Below are positions 1,846 to 35,444 of a stretch of 37,102 nt of DNA, piece by piece. Under the pieces are notes generated by a model. The model was not told the origin of the DNA and made no database searches. It saw only the letters and a program-made list of their open reading frames with translations. Made by a program: the position numbers and the translations under genes. The stretch spans positions 1-37,102 of IMG/VR virus record IMGVR_UViG_3300028827_000070. One strand, 5' to 3'. Every line of letters starts with the position of its first letter. The first letter of the stretch is position 1. Source of the stretch: a virus.

Positions 1846-1864
1846 TGCTCCTATTATTTGTGTG

Positions 1865-1872
1865 CATAAATA
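1865..1872 (+). promoter_or_regulatory. variant T4-type late promoter CATAAATA
   Basis: CATAAATA differs from the T4 late element TATAAATA by one base. It lies just after the terminator and 24 bases before the next start codon, with a ribosome site (TAGGAG, 1883-1888) between them. Placement supports a promoter; the variant first base lowers certainty. Confidence 0.5.
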
Positions 1873-1896
1873 CGCATACAGTATAGGAGCTAATAT

Positions 1897-11151: not shown

Positions 11152-11175
11152 TAAAAATGCAGGCTATGTTATAAT
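11147..11175 (+). promoter_or_regulatory. extended -10 promoter for dnaJ-clpA, leaderless start
   Basis: TGTTATAAT (11167-11175) is a perfect extended -10 element; the -35 (GTGATT, 17-base spacer) is weak, as is common with extended -10 promoters. The expected +1 is 11182, the A of the ATG. There is no Shine-Dalgarno. Confidence 0.7.
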
Positions 11176-18488: not shown

Positions 18489-18506
18489 TATCATCCACGG
18501 ATGATA
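18489..18506 (+). other. 8-bp hairpin between structural and glycosyltransferase-like genes
   Basis: TATCATCC / GGATGATA arms separated by two bases (AC), just after the stop of the structural gene. No clear T-run follows, so it may mark an mRNA end or processing site rather than a strong terminator. A ribosome site TAGGAG and possible late-like TTAAATA follow before ATG 18532. Confidence 0.4.
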
Positions 18507-18531
18507 CTAAATACCTTAAATAGGAGATGTT

Positions 18532-19683
18532 ATGTACCGTGGAATTAAAACTCACAATATAATACTGGCAGACAAACAGCCCGAATTAATTAGTTTTCTA
18601 GATTCAGAATCAGTTGAATATACAACAACATCGGTTGCAGATGCTTCCGATGGGATTTTTATTTTAGATCTCCCCGACGATCTAAAAGATCCGTCCAAAT
18701 TCAACATCGATGATTTTTTATCACTGATTCCATTAAAAATAAAAGAAAGTCTAAAATCAAAGAATTCAACGATAACATTGTTAGTGTATGTAATAGATGC
18801 ACCTAATATATATATGCTCCTGGATGCATTAATGTCATCAATGCATGCATTGGGTTATGATATAACTCGAGTATATACTACAGGTAATTCTTATATTCCA
18901 GCTCTAGCAGATGGGTTGCCTCACTACACATTCTTTTGTAGAGAAGAATTAACATCAGCCGCTAGATTAAGAAACAAGCTAGTTCCGTATCACAATTGTG
19001 ATGAGCGGGAATATATCTATCGTTATTCTGTAAATCATGACACACCATATAATAGAATTTTCGGAGCAGCACTTTATGTTCATGGATTAGTAAACTATGG
19101 ATATTTTTCGTATGACAAGTTGGATATGTCATATAATGACTTGATTAAAAGCCCCGTTTATAAATGGAATAATGTGTGGGAAAATGCGGATTCAATGTTG
19201 GATATGTTCAACATACGTCTACCCATTGTGCCAAAAGACAGACAATTGACGTCAGATATGATATCGTATATTGAGTCATATATAAACTTTGTACCACATA
19301 AATCGTTTAATATAGAGTCTATAATTTTAGACGATGATGTATTTAATAGCATCTATTATATGCAGGTGTTTATGCCTATCTCTGCACCATTTACTCTGGA
19401 GGCCTATCAATCTTTAGGATACAAAACATTCAATGATTTGCTTAACGAAGACTTTGATTCAATAACAAATAATGAAGAAAGAATGGCAATTATATTTAAA
19501 CGGTTATATGATATAACCTATAAGTCGGATTACACAATATCTATGGTAATTAATGCACTTAGTAGTATAACAAAATACAACAAACAAGCACTAATTAGCC
19601 CAAAGAAATATCGACTTTTGAATATACTAGATAATTCTGCGGTTGCTACTGTTATAACTGAAGCCGAAGAAATAACAATTTAA
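18532..19683 (+). CDS. glycosyltransferase-like phage protein
   Basis: 383 residues. The C-terminal third resembles phage proteins related to exostosin-like/GT-B-type glycosyltransferases: a motif where a family usually reads 'PFIL...LR.LGFKTF' is here MPISAPFTLEAYQSLGYKTF, followed by NEDFDSITNNEERM and a helical tail ending in SSITKYNKQAL. A middle segment RIFGAALYVHGLVNYGYFSY also fits those proteins. The N-terminal part (1-140) has a Rossmann-like alternation. The usual metal or donor-binding residues cannot be confirmed, and a role in glycosylating virion or DNA is inference. Start has TAGGAG five bases upstream. Confidence 0.6.
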   Translation: MYRGIKTHNIILADKQPELISFLDSESVEYTTTSVADASDGIFILDLPDDLKDPSKFNIDDFLSLIPLKIKESLKSKNSTITLLVYVIDAPNIYMLLDALMSSMHALGYDITRVYTTGNSYIPALADGLPHYTFFCREELTSAARLRNKLVPYHNCDEREYIYRYSVNHDTPYNRIFGAALYVHGLVNYGYFSYDKLDMSYNDLIKSPVYKWNNVWENADSMLDMFNIRLPIVPKDRQLTSDMISYIESYINFVPHKSFNIESIILDDDVFNSIYYMQVFMPISAPFTLEAYQSLGYKTFNDLLNEDFDSITNNEERMAIIFKRLYDITYKSDYTISMVINALSSITKYNKQALISPKKYRLLNILDNSAVATVITEAEEITI

Positions 19684-21713: not shown

Positions 21714-22193
21714 ATGACTACGTCTAGAAGACCATGGATAATTGTACTTAATGGCAAACCATGGAAATCATTTGAAACAGAGGAAATTGCGCGGCGTGTT
21801 GCTAATGCAACAGCAAAAAAACACAAGATAGAAGCTGAAATAAAATATATCGACGATGTTCCAAATTGGGATGGTAGGAATCATCGCTTAATGTATGAAG
21901 GGTTACCATCTGAAAATTTACCATCCCAAAACTTGCCATCAGACAAACTACCTTCACAAAACTTGCCATCAGACAAACTACCTTCACAAACAACTAGTGC
22001 AGTTGGTGGCTCTGCTACGGCAAGTGGCGTTGGACAGCAGAACAATAATGGCAATAACGATTCAAACAACGATTCAAACAACGATTCAAGCAACGATTCA
22101 AATCAAGACAATCAATCTATAACTGATCTATCCAATCAAGAATTAGATCAACTAAAATCATTATTGAGTAAAATAGGTTTACCACTTTCCTAA
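21714..22193 (+). CDS. protein with low-complexity repeat linker
   Basis: 159 residues. An N-terminal folded part (about 1-60: RPWIIVLNGKPWKSFETEEI, RRVANATAKKH) reads like a small alpha/beta domain. Then a repeat tract NLPSDKLPSQ and an Asn/Asp/Ser-rich tract (NDSNNDSNNDSSNDS) follow, ending with a helix LSNQELDQLKSLLSKIGLPL. No family recognised. The repeats are direct DNA duplications and probably vary between relatives. It ends 40 bases before the nuclease gene hairpin. Confidence 0.7.
   Translation: MTTSRRPWIIVLNGKPWKSFETEEIARRVANATAKKHKIEAEIKYIDDVPNWDGRNHRLMYEGLPSENLPSQNLPSDKLPSQNLPSDKLPSQTTSAVGGSATASGVGQQNNNGNNDSNNDSNNDSSNDSNQDNQSITDLSNQELDQLKSLLSKIGLPLS
21931..21990 (+). repeat. perfect 30-bp tandem duplication
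   Basis: The 30 bases 21931-21960 recur exactly at 21961-21990 and encode NLPSDKLPSQ-type repeats; a diverged copy lies just upstream (about 21900-21930). In-frame unit length keeps the reading frame. Confidence 0.95.
22056..22103 (+). repeat. four tandem 12-bp repeats
   Basis: AACGATTCAAAC occurs at 22056-22067 and 22068-22079, then as AACGATTCAAGC and AACGATTCAAAT. The units are in frame and encode the Asn-Asp-Ser tract of the enclosing gene. Confidence 0.95.
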
Positions 22194-22204
22194 CATCACA
22201 GTAA

Positions 22205-22239
22205 ATACATGTGGTTTTAAAGGAGACAACCACATGTAT
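22205..22239 (+). promoter_or_regulatory. translational hairpin: SD in loop, AUG in stem
   Basis: ATACATGTGGTT (22205-22216) and AACCACATGTAT (22228-22239) form a perfect 12-bp stem with an 11-base loop TTAAAGGAGAC that holds the Shine-Dalgarno AAGGAG. The start codon ATG 22234-22236 lies within the right arm. In RNA this would display the SD yet hide the AUG, as expected for a translational switch or a protein-binding operator in front of the nuclease-dsbA-gp43 genes. Confidence 0.8.
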
Positions 22240-22698
22240 ACATATAGCGCACAATTAGTAAGGGTAATCGATGGAGATTCTATTGTATTCAATATTGATC
22301 TAGGATTTAATATTTGGCTCAATAATACATCAGTCCGATTATTGGGGGTAGACACACCAGAGAAAAGAACAAAAGACAAGTTAGAAAAGTTTTTTGGTTA
22401 CTTATCTACATCATACGTCATTGATAGGATAAGTAAGGCTAGCAAGATAACAATCAGAACTGAACTTGATGGAAAATATGGTCGCCCATTAGCAGAAGTT
22501 TTCATTGATGACTCAAATATTTCATTAAATACTATGCTCATAGAGGATAGAATGGCCGTAAGGTACAATGGGCAATCAAAAAAATTGATCAAAGACGCCC
22601 ATATTAAAAACTGGATTTATTTGGTCGAAAACAACATAACAACACTAGATGATAATATAATTAACTTATATGAACAAATAAGAGGAACAAATGGATAG
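22234..22698 (+). CDS. thermonuclease (staphylococcal nuclease-like)
   Basis: 154 residues with the SNase fold signature. RVIDGDS (D13, D15) opens the metal site; VRLLGVDTPE supplies R35, D40, T41 and E43; DGKYGRPLAEV supplies R84. These match in order and nearly in number the S. aureus residues D21, R35, D40, T41, E43, R87. No signal peptide, so it acts in the cell, for example on host DNA or RNA. Its start codon is in a hairpin stem. It overlaps the next gene (dsbA-like) by eight bases and leads the gp43 unit. Confidence 0.88.
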   Translation: MYTYSAQLVRVIDGDSIVFNIDLGFNIWLNNTSVRLLGVDTPEKRTKDKLEKFFGYLSTSYVIDRISKASKITIRTELDGKYGRPLAEVFIDDSNISLNTMLIEDRMAVRYNGQSKKLIKDAHIKNWIYLVENNITTLDDNIINLYEQIRGTNG

Positions 22699-22945
22699 AG
22701 TAATTACGAAAGAACAGCAAGACAAAATCAGACAAATTGTTAATGAAGGCGTTGCTATCATGCAAGAGATTGATGATCTTAATGAAGGGCTTTCAGATAC
22801 AATTAAAGCAGTAGCAAACGAGCTGGAAATTAAACCAGCAATTCTCAAAAAAGCAATTAAAACAGCACAAAAAGGTAACTTCCAAGATCAATTTGACGAT
22901 TTCGACACTCTAGAAACAATTCTAGACATTGCGAAACGTAAGTGA
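22691..22945 (+). CDS. dsbA: DsbA-like dsDNA-binding protein
   Basis: 84 residues. Its layout, LNEGLSDTIKAVANELEIKP then ILKKAIKTAQKGNFQDQFDD and a final TLETILDIAKRK, parallels T4 DsbA (a small helical dsDNA-binding protein linked to late transcription): a helix, a 'DELGV.G..FNRLL' type helix, and an acidic-to-basic tail. Similarity is by pattern, not computed. It overlaps the nuclease gene by eight bases and ends next to gp43, so it belongs to this replication unit. Confidence 0.7.
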   Translation: MDRVITKEQQDKIRQIVNEGVAIMQEIDDLNEGLSDTIKAVANELEIKPAILKKAIKTAQKGNFQDQFDDFDTLETILDIAKRK

Positions 22946-22959
22946 TATTGGGGATATCT

Positions 22960-25869
22960 ATGAGTTATGTAGACGCAATTCATGAGAATAATACAATCAG
23001 GGTTGTTGAACGTGTTAACGGCAAGAGAGTCTTTCGCGACTTTCCTGCCGAATATACATTCTATTATGATGACCCCAAGGGCAAATATCAAACAGTCTAT
23101 CGTACCCCAGTTAGTAAATTCACAACAAACAAGAAGTCAGAGTTTACAAAAGCATTACGACAGTACGATAATAAGTGGGAGCATGATATATCTCCCGTTA
23201 TTAGGTGCCTAGCCAACAACTATCAGGGAAAAACAGCACCTGAATTAAATGTTGCGTTTTTTGATATCGAGGTAGATTTTGATAAGACGCACGGTTTCGC
23301 GCCTCCTAGTGATCCATTCAACAAAATTACTGCAATTACCGTATATTTGCAGTGGCTAGACGAATTGATAACTCTGACAATTCCACCAAAACACATGTCT
23401 ATGGAAACAGCACAAGAAATTGCTGATAAATTTGACAATACATTCATATTTGACAATGAAGTTGAAATGATAGAAACATTCTTTGATCTAATTCAAGATG
23501 TTGATGTTATTAGTGGGTGGAATAGTGAAGGTTTTGATATCCCTTATATGATAAATCGCATATCAAGGATTATGTCAAAGACTGATAATAAGCGATGGTG
23601 TCTATGGGATAAATCACCACAACGAAAAGTACATGAGTATTATGGCGCGTCTTATGAAACATTTGTATTAGTTGGCAGGGTTCATTTAGACTATCTTTCA
23701 CTTTATAAAAAATTCACATATCATGAAATGCACAGCTACAGTCTAGATGCCATTGGCGAATATGAAGTCAATGAACGAAAAGTCGCATATGAAGGCACAC
23801 TAGATAAGCTATATAATGAGGATTTTGAAAAATTCATAGCATATAACAGGCAAGATACTTATTTGATTCATAAAATTGATAGAAAGGTAGATTTTATTGC
23901 ACTTGCAAACAGTGTTGTTCATGAAAACACTGTTCCATTTTCAGCAGCACTTGGTTCTGTTGCAGTTACTGAGCAAGGAATTATCAATGAAACACATGCG
24001 TTGGGCTTTGTTGTCCAAAGCAAAAGTAAACCATCTTCAGATGAGGATACAAAGGCTGCTGGAGCATATGTCGCAACACCAAAGAAAGGACTCCATTATT
24101 GGATTGGTTCTGTAGACATTAATTCCCTATATCCATCCGCGATTAGGGCATTAAATATGGCTCCAGAAACAATTGTTGGACAGTTGTTACCAACAATGAC
24201 AAATGAAATGATTGAAAATCATTTGGCTAAGTCAAAAACGAATACAGTAACTAGTGCATGGGAAGGGCATTTTGGTTCGTTAGAATATGAAGCAGTTATG
24301 GATCGCAGAACTGATGTTAAAATATCAATTGAATGGGACACTACTGGGACGACACAGTATTCAACCTTAGGTATGTTGGCTGGTGTTACTACTCTGACTG
24401 CCGCAGAGGTGTATAGTCTAATTTTTGAAGGACAAGAAAAATGGATGCTCAGTGCAAATGGTACTATTTTCTCATACGAACACAGAGGAATTATCCCACT
24501 GTTGTTGGAGAAATGGTACAGTGAGCGTAAATCAATGCAGCGAACTAAGGACCGATACCAATCATTGAAAGATGGTATTGAACTTCCAGAGAACATGTCA
24601 GGACTGTCAGTAACTGCCGACGAGTCAAAATACCAAAATTTAATTGATGTTAATGTCATTTATGAAATCTTAGAAGATGATTTGAAAACAAAAGAGGATC
24701 TCAAAACCGCTGCATTAGAACATGGATTTAACATTTCTAATGATACCATTACTGCTCTTCCTAAATTTGAAAAAGAGCTAGACTATCAAATCTGGTATTG
24801 GGATAAGCGACAGCATGTAAAGAAAATTCTACTTAACTCATTGTATGGTGCATTGCTGAATAAATATTGTAGATTCTATGATCCTAGATTGGGCCAAAGC
24901 ACAACATTAACTGGTAGAACTATTACTAGACATATGAGTGCTATTATTAATGATTCAATTGCCGGTACATATGACTATCAAGGAGACGCCATTATTTATG
25001 GTGATACGGACTCGTGTTATTTTAGCGCATGGCCATTTGTTAAAGAATCTGTAGAAAACAATGAAATCGAATGGAGCGTAGAAACTGCAACTGAACTCTA
25101 CGACTCTATTGCTGATATAGTAAATGATAGCTTTCCTGGACTAATGGAAAGAAAGTTTCATTGTCCTAGAGAATTTGGCAGCATAATCAGATGCGGTAGG
25201 GAAATTACAGCATCTACTGGCCTTTTCATTAAAAAGAAACGTTATGCATGTCTAGTACAAGATCTAGAAGGAGTCCGTATGGACGTTAACGGCAAGCCGG
25301 GCAAACTAAAGGCAATGGGTTTAGATTTGAAACGAGCAGATACGCCAGTAATTGTACAGGACTTTCTTAAAGATGTTTTGATGGATCTGTTGGTTGGTAA
25401 GGACAAGAATGAAATCTTTCAAAAGATCAGAGACTTTAAACGGGAGTTCAAACAATTAAAGAGCTGGGAAAAAGGGACGCCAAAGCGCGTTAACAAATTA
25501 ACATACTATACTAGATTATCGCAAGAGAATACAAAAGCAACTATACCTGGCCATGTTCGGGCTAGCATTAATTATAATATTCTGCGTGAGCTCAACCGTG
25601 ACAATGTAAGTATGCCAATCAACGACGGTCAAAAAATTGTTGTTTGCGCCCTCAAAGATAATCCAATGCAGTACACAAGCGTGGCATATCCTGTTGATAT
25701 TAGAAAGCTGCCAGATTGGTTCTTGGAGCTTCCGTTTGACGATGCTCTAATGGAGGAAACAATAGTTGACAAGAAGCTAGAAAATCTATTGTCTGTCTTG
25801 AATTGGAACATTGATATCAATACTAACATAAACAATACATTTACTACATTTTTCACACCAGCGTGTTGA
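22960..25869 (+). CDS. 43: DNA polymerase, family B (T4 gp43-like)
   Basis: The replicative polymerase with proofreading. The start is ATG 22960, which has TTGGGG six bases upstream; GTG 22942 would add six residues overlapping dsbA. Exonuclease motifs are FDIEVD (from residue 101) and WNSEGFDIPYM; the polymerase motifs are A DINSLYPSAIRAL (D386), B KKILLNSLYGAL and C YGDTDS (D682, D684). A basic thumb region (KSWEKGTPKRVNKLTYYTRL) follows. The C-terminal TFTTFF lies where T4 polymerases carry a clamp-binding peptide. At 969 residues it is longer than T4 gp43 (898). The clamp gene follows after 89 bases. Confidence 0.95.
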   Translation: MSYVDAIHENNTIRVVERVNGKRVFRDFPAEYTFYYDDPKGKYQTVYRTPVSKFTTNKKSEFTKALRQYDNKWEHDISPVIRCLANNYQGKTAPELNVAFFDIEVDFDKTHGFAPPSDPFNKITAITVYLQWLDELITLTIPPKHMSMETAQEIADKFDNTFIFDNEVEMIETFFDLIQDVDVISGWNSEGFDIPYMINRISRIMSKTDNKRWCLWDKSPQRKVHEYYGASYETFVLVGRVHLDYLSLYKKFTYHEMHSYSLDAIGEYEVNERKVAYEGTLDKLYNEDFEKFIAYNRQDTYLIHKIDRKVDFIALANSVVHENTVPFSAALGSVAVTEQGIINETHALGFVVQSKSKPSSDEDTKAAGAYVATPKKGLHYWIGSVDINSLYPSAIRALNMAPETIVGQLLPTMTNEMIENHLAKSKTNTVTSAWEGHFGSLEYEAVMDRRTDVKISIEWDTTGTTQYSTLGMLAGVTTLTAAEVYSLIFEGQEKWMLSANGTIFSYEHRGIIPLLLEKWYSERKSMQRTKDRYQSLKDGIELPENMSGLSVTADESKYQNLIDVNVIYEILEDDLKTKEDLKTAALEHGFNISNDTITALPKFEKELDYQIWYWDKRQHVKKILLNSLYGALLNKYCRFYDPRLGQSTTLTGRTITRHMSAIINDSIAGTYDYQGDAIIYGDTDSCYFSAWPFVKESVENNEIEWSVETATELYDSIADIVNDSFPGLMERKFHCPREFGSIIRCGREITASTGLFIKKKRYACLVQDLEGVRMDVNGKPGKLKAMGLDLKRADTPVIVQDFLKDVLMDLLVGKDKNEIFQKIRDFKREFKQLKSWEKGTPKRVNKLTYYTRLSQENTKATIPGHVRASINYNILRELNRDNVSMPINDGQKIVVCALKDNPMQYTSVAYPVDIRKLPDWFLELPFDDALMEETIVDKKLENLLSVLNWNIDINTNINNTFTTFFTPAC

Positions 25870-28331: not shown

Positions 28332-28809
28332 TTATTTACATGAATCATTGTCGTTGACTGTTGACAGTAGCGACAGTCCAATGAAAGGAACTACGGTTTT
28401 AAATATCACAGCAAAGAGTTTACGCGAATACAAGGATCGTTTAGTAACTATTATCCACAATGCCATTCGTTTAAATGATGTAGAACAATTACGATTCATT
28501 ATCCGTACTATTGATTCGAACGCTGACCTAAAGGAAATGATCAAACTCGCATTGCATTATGAATCTAAAGGAATGGCAGTTGCGTTTGATTTTCCAGTAG
28601 AATTACTACATTGGATTGCAGAGACAGAAATCTTAGAAAGAGATATTATCGTAACTGCTCGAATTGATATGTCGGCATTGTCATTTACTGATAATGCTAT
28701 TGTCAATATTATTGGATTGAATGGAGTGTTCAGTGCTAATTTGAACAAAATCAAATCAGTATCTAATTACATACCAAATAAGATCCTAAACAAAGGCAAT
28801 GAAATTTAA
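28312..28809 (+). CDS. unknown protein coupled to dpdA
   Basis: 165 residues, no family recognised. A polar N-terminus (YLHESLSLTVDSSDSPMKGT) leads to helices (YKDRLVTIIHNAIRLNDVEQ; LKEMIKLALHYESKGMAVAF) and a beta-strand end (IVTARIDMSALSF; AIVNIIGLNGVF). It starts 20 bases inside dpdA, so it is translated with it, and may assist base modification; this is context only. A late promoter follows. Confidence 0.7.
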   Translation: MPKKTNNYLHESLSLTVDSSDSPMKGTTVLNITAKSLREYKDRLVTIIHNAIRLNDVEQLRFIIRTIDSNADLKEMIKLALHYESKGMAVAFDFPVELLHWIAETEILERDIIVTARIDMSALSFTDNAIVNIIGLNGVFSANLNKIKSVSNYIPNKILNKGNEI

Positions 28810-28810
28810 C

Positions 28811-28818
28811 TATAAATA
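28811..28818 (+). promoter_or_regulatory. T4-type late promoter TATAAATA
   Basis: Perfect match two bases after the previous stop and 46 bases before ATG 28865. Confidence 0.8.
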
Positions 28819-28864
28819 ATAGTGTAAGACATTTATTAATTTAACTATTATTTGGAGTAAACAA

Positions 28865-29119: not shown

Positions 29120-29147
29120 AAAAAAGCGGCCTAGGCCGCTTTTTTTA
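29120..29147. terminator. strong bidirectional terminator
   Basis: GCGGCC / GGCCGC arms around a CTAG centre, flanked by six A on one side and seven T on the other, give a perfect GC-rich stem with U-run in both directions. It closes the unit before the Fn3 lipoprotein. Confidence 0.92.
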
Positions 29148-29692: not shown

Positions 29693-29721
29693 AGTGTCGG
29701 TAGCAGGCGGTTATCGACACT
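29693..29721 (+). promoter_or_regulatory. hairpin in folE leader
   Basis: AGTGTCG / CGACACT (29693-29699, 29715-29721) with a 15-base loop lies at the expected 5' end of the late transcript, upstream of the ribosome site GGGAGG. It may protect the RNA end or regulate translation. It does not fit the preQ1 riboswitch consensus well enough to call. Confidence 0.5.
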
Positions 29722-29750
29722 TCAACCTATTAAATATTACGGGAGGTAAT

Positions 29751-30431
29751 ATGTCTTTAAATAAACAAAAGTGCGACGCTGAACTGGGCAAGCGCGTACA
29801 CCAGCATTTGGTTTCACTAGGCCTAGAAACACCAGTAATCGAAAATTCACTTTCAGTCAAAGAGAGAATTAGCCTAATCCAAAAAGACTTCGCAAACATT
29901 ATGGTTAACTTAGGCTTAGACCTAACAGACGACTCATTAGCAGATACCCCGCGAAGAGTTGCCAAAATGTATGTAACTGAGATTTTTTATGGTTTAGATT
30001 ATGACTGTTTTCCAAAATGCACTGCAATTGAAAACAAGTTTGAAGCAGATGAAATGATTGTTGAGCGAAATGTCAATGTCATGTCATCTTGTGAACATCA
30101 TTTTGTTACAATTGATGGGTTTGCTACTATTGGATACATTCCTAGTAAAAAAGTAATTGGACTATCTAAATTAAATCGAATTGTTGAGTTTTTTTCAAAA
30201 CGACCACAAGTTCAAGAACGGCTCACTGCACAGATTCACGCTGCTTTATCCTATATTTTGGATTCAGATGATATTGCTGTGGTGATAACTGCCAAGCATT
30301 ATTGTGTTGCTAGTCGTGGTATTGAAGATACTGCTTCATTTACTACAACAAGTAAGCTAAGTGGAGCATTTCGTAACGATGCGCAAACAAGAGCAGAATT
30401 TATGGCTCTTGCAAATAGTTCATCAGTTTAA
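29751..30431 (+). CDS. folE: GTP cyclohydrolase I
   Basis: First enzyme from GTP towards tetrahydropterins and 7-deazaguanines. Start ATG 29751 has GGGAGG five bases upstream; upstream in-frame codons lie in the leader. 226 residues. The zinc and active-site set is visible: C114 in SSCEHH, H116/H117, and C185 in HYCVASRG. DTPRRVAKMYVTEIF and VIGLSKLNRIVEFFSKRPQV are family hallmarks. Between dpdA and queE, so it most likely feeds 7-deazaguanine synthesis rather than folate. Confidence 0.93.
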   Translation: MSLNKQKCDAELGKRVHQHLVSLGLETPVIENSLSVKERISLIQKDFANIMVNLGLDLTDDSLADTPRRVAKMYVTEIFYGLDYDCFPKCTAIENKFEADEMIVERNVNVMSSCEHHFVTIDGFATIGYIPSKKVIGLSKLNRIVEFFSKRPQVQERLTAQIHAALSYILDSDDIAVVITAKHYCVASRGIEDTASFTTTSKLSGAFRNDAQTRAEFMALANSSSV

Positions 30432-30448
30432 TCATTTCAACCTGTTAA

Positions 30449-30475
30449 TGGTGCCATCGTTATTGTTGGTGCCAT
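30449..30475 (+). promoter_or_regulatory. direct repeats TGGTGCCAT across queE promoter
   Basis: The 9-mer TGGTGCCAT occurs exactly at 30449-30457 and 30467-30475, spaced 18 bases. The second copy lies between -35 and -10 of the queE promoter, typical of an operator. Confidence 0.55.
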
Positions 30476-30491
30476 TTTTAAATGTTATAAT
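30463..30491 (+). promoter_or_regulatory. sigma70-type promoter for queE, leaderless start
   Basis: -35 TTGTTG (30463-30468), 17-base spacer, extended -10 TGTTATAAT (30483-30491). The expected +1 is 30498, the A of the queE ATG. No Shine-Dalgarno. Confidence 0.75.
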
Positions 30492-30497
30492 TATCTT

Positions 30498-31361
30498 ATG
30501 AAGAAATTAAAAGTTAGTGAGTTGTTCTATTCCCTTCAAGGGGAAGGAAAATATGTCGGCCAACCGTCTGTTTTTTTACGACTATTTGGATGTAATTTAA
30601 AATGTGAAGGGTTTGGTATGCCGTCGGGCCAAAAATCCACAGAGCGATTCGATATAAGATTTGATGACCTCAGTCAATATAACAGCATTAGTGATTTACC
30701 ATTAGTATCAACAGGGTGCGATTCATATGCATCTTGGGACAGCAGATTCAAAAGGTTTAGTCCAACATATTCAATTGATGAAGTAGTTGATCAAATGTTG
30801 GCACTATTGCCAGGTCAGCCTGATCATTGGGATAATGAAAATATCCATTTGGTTATTACCGGCGGCGAGCCTTTATTGCCTGGGTGGCAGAAAATTCTTC
30901 CAGATTTAATTCGTCATTATAAATTAGTGAAATTGAAATATATAACAATTGAAACTAATGGTACAAAAGAGCTCACTAATGACTTTCAACAATTTGTATA
31001 CGCCTGTTCTAAACTGTGGACATTTAGCGTATCGCCAAAATTATCTGCAAGTGGCGAGCCAATGGATAAAACAATAAAACCCAAAGCAATTGCATCATAT
31101 GTTAGGGCGCGGGCGACAGTATATGCAAAATATGTATGTCAAACAGAAAACGATATAAAAGAAGCAATAGCAGTTCATGACGAATTTAATAATGAACTAC
31201 TAGCCATTGATCATATACCAATGTACATCATGCCAGCTGGTGGCATGCATGAGCAATACAAAAACACATCAAAAACAATCGCAGCATTGTGTATGAAGTA
31301 TGGTGTTACTTTTACTCCACGGCTACACATTGATCTATTTGGAAATAAATGGGCTACATAA
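30498..31361 (+). CDS. queE: 7-carboxy-7-deazaguanine synthase (radical SAM)
   Basis: Ring-contracts 6-carboxytetrahydropterin to CDG. LFYSLQGEGKYVGQPSVFLR is the QueE opening; the radical SAM cysteines read FGCNLKC (C32, C36) with a third C74 in TGCDSYASW after an insertion of 37 residues. VITGGEPLL and ETNGT complete the fold. 287 residues, longer than typical QueE by this insert. It has its own host-type promoter and ends inside the next gene (13-base overlap). The product should pass to QueC (not seen in this window) on the way to the base used by DpdA. Confidence 0.9.
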   Translation: MKKLKVSELFYSLQGEGKYVGQPSVFLRLFGCNLKCEGFGMPSGQKSTERFDIRFDDLSQYNSISDLPLVSTGCDSYASWDSRFKRFSPTYSIDEVVDQMLALLPGQPDHWDNENIHLVITGGEPLLPGWQKILPDLIRHYKLVKLKYITIETNGTKELTNDFQQFVYACSKLWTFSVSPKLSASGEPMDKTIKPKAIASYVRARATVYAKYVCQTENDIKEAIAVHDEFNNELLAIDHIPMYIMPAGGMHEQYKNTSKTIAALCMKYGVTFTPRLHIDLFGNKWAT

Positions 31362-35090: not shown

Positions 35091-35118
35091 CATTAAATAA
35101 GTACATTGCGTGTCTTGG

Positions 35119-35126
35119 TATAAATA
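35119..35126 (+). promoter_or_regulatory. T4-type late promoter TATAAATA
   Basis: Perfect match 22 bases before ATG 35148 with a CGGAG ribosome site between. It sits between short arms GTCTT (35112-35116) and AAGAC (35132-35136). Confidence 0.8.
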
Positions 35127-35147
35127 CAGTATAAGACCGGAGATGTA

Positions 35148-35444
35148 ATGAGTAGACCCAAGCCAACTGTATTATTAGAATATATCAACAAAAGTACCTA
35201 TAAAAGCGAACAGGTTTTACAAGGTGATGTTGTGTATGCTGTATTTTATGATGGGATGCCTATTAATCTCAAAACAAAAAACATCCTTGTAAATTATCCT
35301 GGTCCAAAATACAAAAAGACTAGTTTTACTAATCCCGGGTTTGCTGTTAATTTAGCAAAACGGTTGAATCAACAATTCAACACTGACAAATTTACTGTAG
35401 TTGAATTGACACCTGGAAAGGTTATTTACAACAGCAACAAATGA
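35148..35444 (+). CDS. conserved marine-phage protein
   Basis: 98 residues: MSRPKPTVLLEYINKSTYKS, EQVLQGDVVYAVFYDGMPIN, YPGPKYKKTSFTN and NLAKRLNQQFNTDKFTVVEL. I recall near-identical small proteins in marine T4-like phages; function unknown. Under its own late promoter and overlapping the next gene by four bases. Confidence 0.78.
   Translation: MSRPKPTVLLEYINKSTYKSEQVLQGDVVYAVFYDGMPINLKTKNILVNYPGPKYKKTSFTNPGFAVNLAKRLNQQFNTDKFTVVELTPGKVIYNSNK

Follow-up and report, generated by a model that had tools for sequence, protein, structure and literature searches.

The 12-bp hairpin at the start of a staphylococcal-nuclease-family gene in this phage DNA is probably a switch that responds to the origin of the transcript, in which case the nuclease would be made only from late RNA begun at the promoter-like element AGTAAATA. 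RNA reading in from the upstream early and middle genes, serving early dsbA and polymerase, would carry both arms of the hairpin; the nuclease start codon would then lie in the 12-bp stem, the Shine-Dalgarno (SD) sequence would be held in the loop and no nuclease would be produced. In the late phase, initiation by a gp55-type RNA polymerase at AGTAAATA (22200-22207) would give an RNA that begins within the 5′ arm and is unable to form the stem, and the nuclease would be translated, at this stage only. What was computed from the sequences comprises the hairpin, the motif with its position, a difference of 8–10 kcal/mol in the cost of opening the start (the ddG defined below) and a group-wide coupling of arm and promoter. 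The stretch analysed (the window), 37,102 bases long, is a virus record from IMG/VR.

The hairpin and the genes that follow it

The Pfam and PHROG matches of the three genes behind the hairpin (table 1) bear out the claim of the earlier note that a nuclease heads a dsbA-gp43 unit. In the alignment with six phage homologues, residues D13, D15, R35, D40, E43 and R84 of the nuclease are invariant; they are of the catalytic type and reproduce the Asp/Arg/Asp/Glu/Arg active-site pattern of the SNase family. The 3′ end of the nuclease gene overlaps the DsbA-like gene, whose homologue in phage MIJ3 carries the annotation DsbA. The polymerase ORF begins with a GTG at 22942, and the ATG at 22960 is its probable start. 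Jumbo phages Atu_ph07, Phosso, SCTP-2 and PA5oct are among the closest named relatives of the polymerase, the DsbA-like protein and the protein of ORF 35148.

Table 1. Coordinates of the genes, hairpins and promoter-like elements in the window
Feature	Position	Strand	Details
Staphylococcal-nuclease-family gene, 154 aa	22234..22698	+	PF00565 (SNase) E 3.7e-11; phrog_452 endonuclease E 5e-31
DsbA-like dsDNA-binding/transcription-regulator gene, 84 aa, second in unit	22691..22945	+	phrog_12534, phrog_639
Family-B DNA polymerase (gp43-like), third in unit	22960..25869	+	phrog_262 E 5e-196; PF00136, PF03104
T4-type late-promoter-like AGTAAATA	22200..22207	+	overlaps first 3 nt of hairpin 5′ arm
Hairpin 5′ arm ATACATGTGGTT	22205..22216	+	complete in readthrough RNA only
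Predicted late transcription start, inside 5′ arm	22213..22215	+	inferred: 6-8 nt past last A of the element, T4 late-promoter geometry
Hairpin loop TTAAAGGAGAC with SD AGGAG	22217..22227	+	
Hairpin 3′ arm AACCACATGTAT	22228..22239	+	contains ATG 22234-22236 of nuclease gene
Nested hairpin before ORF 1897	1847..1890	+	stem of GCTCCTAT and ATAGGAGC; apical loop holds late promoter CATAAATA 1865-1872
Nested hairpin before ORF 18532	18495..18542	+	CCACGG..CCGTGG encloses ACTAAATA 18506-18513, SD and ATG
Weaker instance before ORF 28865	28806..28861	+	TATAAATA 28811-28818 in 5′ arm, SD in 3′ arm
Weaker nested instance before ORF 35148	35103..35150	+	TATAAATA 35119-35126 in loop

All genes from 11182 through the polymerase are co-directional. 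No convincing terminator was seen directly upstream of the nuclease hairpin, and no convincing sigma70-like promoter directly before the dsbA of the window; among the copies of the relatives, 27 of 29 have a sigma70-like promoter of their own. Since no convincing one was seen directly before the dsbA of the window, dsbA and the polymerase seem to need readthrough for their early expression, and under such conditions the leading nuclease gene of the unit would have to be silenced.

Several other features of the window were recorded. Extended −10 elements (TGTTATAAT/TGTTATACT) at 11167, 30483 and 5347 precede ORFs 11182, 30498 and 5363, with TGTTATAAT at 11167, and are likely early promoters. 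Short tandem repeats, for instance CCATCAGACAAACTACCTTCACAAAACTTG and AACGATTCAAAC, occupy 21918-22120 within ORF 21714; this ORF lies just ahead of the nuclease gene and its product is of low complexity. Adjacent GTP cyclohydrolase and QueE-like genes (29694-31361) suggest a 7-deazaguanine pathway, possibly for DNA modification.

In the hairpin itself (22205-22239), ATACATGTGGTT-TTAAAGGAGAC-AACCACATGTAT, 12-nt arms of perfect complementarity flank a loop of 11 nt. Arms and fold confirm the description given in the earlier note, that is, SD in the loop and AUG in the stem, and place the start in a stable helix as in the T4-type nested hairpins of ribosome-binding sites (RBS). A 71-nt RNA containing it has a minimum free energy of −14.6 kcal/mol (z = −3.28), which none of 200 shuffles equalled. 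Perfect 12-bp inverted repeats (loop 3–20 nt) number two in the window, whereas 30 dinucleotide-shuffled versions of it contain 0.03 on average. The hairpin is therefore not a product of chance, in agreement with the note, which had argued from the length of the stem.

A search of IMG/VR for the exact hairpin returned just two unrelated matches, which is about the rough chance estimate, and no Rfam family was matched. As an intrinsic terminator the hairpin was ruled out because no U-run follows the stem.

The late-promoter-like element and the cost of opening the start

The element AGTAAATA, overlooked in the earlier note, ends with an A located 26 nt before the nuclease ATG. Judged by its geometry it would place the 5′ end of the late RNA inside the 5′ arm (table 1), and an RNA begun there lacks most of this arm and cannot form the stem. 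The element is a variant of the T4 consensus TATAAATA, which is found six times in the forward and once in the reverse orientation in the window, mostly directly before ORFs. Upstream of SD-bearing starts of the window and its relatives, TAAATA shows forward to reverse counts of 78:10 when preceded by A, 21:6 by C and 10:0 by AG; in a smaller set of starts, AGTAAATA itself was counted 5 to 0. The positions of the NATAAATA/NCTAAATA forms peak at 16–27 nt before the ATG. The element is a candidate promoter with a predicted start.

Of 11 related contigs, seven encode a gp55-like protein according to a search with T4 gp55 (E about 1e-6), and a sigma70 region-2 profile gave no match in the relatives. 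No gp55 gene was identified in the 37-kb window, which is itself a fragment. ATAAATA late promoters are described for both jumbo phages CBB and GAP32, and a gp55-like sigma factor for CBB (PMC5259590).

The effect of the arm was expressed as an opening energy, that is, the cost of unpairing the start region from −16 to +9, with ddG being the extra cost contributed by the sequence upstream of the transcription start (+1). As a null, the upstream arms were exchanged for those of other genes. For the nuclease, opening costs 11.5–12.2 kcal/mol in the readthrough RNA and 1.6–3.6 kcal/mol in the predicted late RNA, values stable across +1 choices of 5–8 nt past the motif and upstream lengths of 30–150 nt, and the native arm ranks in the top 2–3% among arms swapped in from other genes. 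An earlier test took a longer upstream segment and compared mean pairing probabilities; it found no excess at 10 window sites (p 0.38). Being too coarse and having one promoter mis-chosen, it was superseded by the opening energies, the arm swaps and a larger set.

The measure was applied to T4 as a positive control and returned ddG values of 14.7 for e, 14.4 for I-TevI, 13.6 for gene 49, 13.5 for I-TevII and 12.1 for segB. The known set stood above the null (p 0.0007) and the other T4 late genes did not (p 0.33). Since soc, the textbook case, scores 2.3 and I-TevIII −0.2, the measure misses some true cases.

Promoter-nested hairpins in the window and its relatives

Within the window, ORFs 1897 and 18532 are clear further instances; those of ORFs 28865 and 35148 are less pronounced and vary with the context. 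For ORF 1897 the ddG is 16.4 in short and 7.5–9.6 in longer context, and for ORF 18532 it is 7.9, falling to about 5. The hairpin of ORF 28865 has 18-nt arms with 83% complementarity and a ddG of 2–5; it is a local instance, because no late promoter was found upstream of the homologues of this ORF. Downstream of the same ORF, a perfect AAAAAAGCGGCCT/AGGCCGCTTTTTT palindrome (29120-29145) is probably a bidirectional terminator.

In the class tests, which cover predicted promoters and starts from simple ORF calling in relatives of shared ancestry, the 97 late-promoter genes had a mean ddG of 3.78 versus 2.83 ± 0.19 with swapped arms (z 4.9; p 5e-5, the permutation floor), and 10 of them reached at least 10 kcal/mol versus 1.3 expected. 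No ddG excess was present in the 624 genes without any promoter motif (0.05 ± 0.10). The first control set showed a mild excess (p 0.02), which was gone once the genes with sigma70-like promoters were removed, and this loss fits a coupling to sigma70-like promoters as well.

The signal is very strong across the family of ORF 35148, whose own ddG is 6.7 in short and 0.7–3.6 in longer context. This ORF (35148-35444) encodes a protein of about 95 aa (MSRPKPT..) with hundreds of homologues in IMG/VR and no match in PHROG. A late promoter lies upstream of all 44 non-redundant copies, in 41 at 9–70 nt and in three closer. The mean ddG of the family is 7.17 versus 3.25 ± 0.35 after swapping (z 11.1), with 19 copies at 8 kcal/mol or more where 2.6 were expected. 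A recurrent form, GATAAATATAT(A/G)CGTA..AAGGA..TACG(T/C)ATATATG, resembles the nuclease hairpin: the arm begins in the promoter, the loop contains the SD and the ATG is at the stem. At the variable pair of the stem, distinct sequences combine A with T in 10 cases and G with C in 19, with two exceptions (Fisher p 3e-6, which is optimistic since the sequences are related). Since the MAFFT alignment placed the 3′ arm out of register, this covariation was counted directly. In the three closer copies (L196, L201 and L206) the promoter lies <9 nt before the ATG, which suggests a nearly leaderless late mRNA; ORF 8201 of the window seems similar.

The 71 genes with sigma70-like promoters gave an unexpected excess of the same kind, with a mean ddG of 3.68 versus 2.59 ± 0.24 (z 4.6) and five genes at 15 kcal/mol or more versus 0.1 expected. 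For dsbA in the relatives the z is 3.5 and six copies exceed 10 kcal/mol. In relative L148 the arm consists of the −35 sequence TTGACTCC itself, paired with GGAGTCAA.

Individual sigma70-like promoters (TTGAC..TATAAT) nested in RBS-hiding hairpins were seen in L004 (2290-2363), L070, L065, L017, L009 and L148 (minus strand, ATG 5487). In these cases, which concern dsbA and other genes of the relatives, the −35 or the spacer acts as an anti-SD sequence. No prior description of such nesting at sigma70-like promoters or in jumbo phages was found in the part of the literature searched.

Based on these comparisons, related giant phages appear to use promoter-nested hairpins at many genes. The nesting may even be general in the jumbo lineage, at late (TAAATA) as well as sigma70-like (TTGAC..TATAAT) promoters, with many genes translated only from RNA of their own promoter and silent on readthrough RNA; we put this forward tentatively, at somewhat less than even odds. 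If true, the timing of each gene would be insulated genome-wide with no regulator protein.

The nuclease gene gives a different picture when it is followed across its own family. Among 73 non-redundant homologues, 69 have no late promoter upstream, and of the four that do, one (L316) has a strong hairpin; on these counts, conservation of the hairpin appears to track the promoter and not the nuclease gene. The earlier note would have taken a stem lost while the coding sequence is kept as evidence against its reading. The nuclease family as a whole does show such a loss, though in genes that are placed in other contexts and are devoid of the promoter as well. A hairpin laid out like that of the nuclease, GATAAATAAACATA..AGGAG..TATGTTTGTTTAT, precedes the gene of a GIY-YIG homing endonuclease (phrog_314) in relative L103. 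This gene is on the minus strand (ATG at plus coordinate 6705), and its hairpin of about 16 bp has the late promoter itself as 5′ arm.

Other readings of the hairpin and comparison with known systems

The hairpin could also damp a toxic nuclease in all transcripts by constitutive occlusion of the RBS, with AGTAAATA being no promoter. The hairpin is strong in any promoter context and the element is off-consensus, as this would have it; we nevertheless regard it as unlikely, as arm and promoter are coupled group-wide and not in genes without a promoter motif, and as AG-TAAATA is strand-biased 10:0.

The perfect dyad overlaps the promoter-like element, and I-TevI provides a precedent as the repressor of its own late promoter (PMC2988022), so that the inverted repeat might instead be a palindrome bound by a protein over the promoter at the DNA level. 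This is very improbable: the arm sequences turn over completely across genes and phages with their complementarity kept, and therefore RNA pairing fits better than a single binding protein. SNase-fold enzymes, moreover, are not known for site-specific binding.

The earlier note had proposed a control of the gp43 type, in which the hairpin would be bound by the gp43-like polymerase, or by the nuclease, and the operon thereby repressed. Repression of its own mRNA is known for T4 gp43, which acts through a small UAAC-loop hairpin beside the ribosome site of gene 43 (PMC3014915); the hairpin of the window, like this operator of T4 and RB69, is formed by RNA close to a ribosome site within the polymerase transcription unit. 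However, it belongs to another gene, precedes the polymerase start by about 725 nt (about 0.7 kb), is not beside the polymerase's own ribosome site, has the loop UUAAAGGAGAC in place of UAAC and gives no sign of protein dependence. The dsbA and polymerase genes each have their own start site, and in about 80 related loci with dsbA-polymerase synteny neither this nuclease nor this hairpin was found upstream. A 12-bp stem that occludes the ATG needs no protein, and binding would leave the promoter overlap unexplained. We thus see scarcely any likelihood in such an autoregulatory operator. What stands of the earlier note is translational control as such: structure and comparison make it well supported that the start-hiding hairpin would control translation of the nuclease, and the part assigned to gp43 is not supported.

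Right before the polymerase ATG, a 5-bp GATAT-TGGGG-ATATC hairpin (22944-22958) carries an SD-like GGGG in its loop; it is a better placed candidate for a gp43 operator than the 12-bp hairpin, but a weak one.

Cleavage of the loop by a RegB-type endonuclease is the least probable reading, since it explains neither the promoter overlap nor the pairing of the ATG, even if GGAG (22222-22225) is unpaired in the loop and RegB is an enzyme that cuts this motif where translation is initiated (PMC3014915); an additional role for such cleavage is conceivable.

With the transcript-origin switch as the preferred reading, the control point would shift from autoregulation of the polymerase to a protein-free timing switch readable from the sequence. 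The switch predicts genes that are silent on readthrough RNA, and it would explain how the polymerase is expressed early through the nuclease gene without nuclease being made; the repression itself and the purpose of a late nuclease are inferred. Should the wider pattern be borne out, transcripts alone would not reveal the timing of expression in jumbo phages.

The late-promoter-nested hairpins of T4 e, soc, 49, I-TevI and segB would be a better parallel than the gp43 operator, as no binding protein is needed. In T4, the early RNA takes the closed form, which lowers lysozyme synthesis about 100-fold, and the late RNA the open one (PMC3014915, PMC2988022). Similarly to the hairpin of the window, the SD and/or ATG of T4 e, soc, 49, I-TevI, I-TevII and segB, and of Aeh1 mobE, are hidden in RNA initiated upstream, and the late-promoter motif is in or beside the 5′ arm, which the late RNA lacks. 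The layout of soc, with the arm just after the promoter, the SD in the loop and the ATG in the stem, is close to that of the nuclease hairpin, and several of the T4 targets are nucleases, as here.

In the window, by contrast, the target is a protein of the staphylococcal-nuclease fold whose gene opens the dsbA-polymerase unit, the phage is of a jumbo lineage with Atu_ph07, Phosso, PA5oct and SCTP-2 as relatives, and the promoter is the variant AGTAAATA, with promoter and repression being predicted. The ATAAATA late promoters of CBB and GAP32 are of the same motif class as this element, and the passages of that paper considered here report promoters and sigma factors and do not mention RBS hairpins tied to them (PMC5259590). 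The few nested hairpins of T4 would thus have relatives in jumbo phages: the nuclease hairpin would belong to the known T4 late-promoter-nested arrangement, and what may be new is its broader use in jumbo phages, coupled to promoters.
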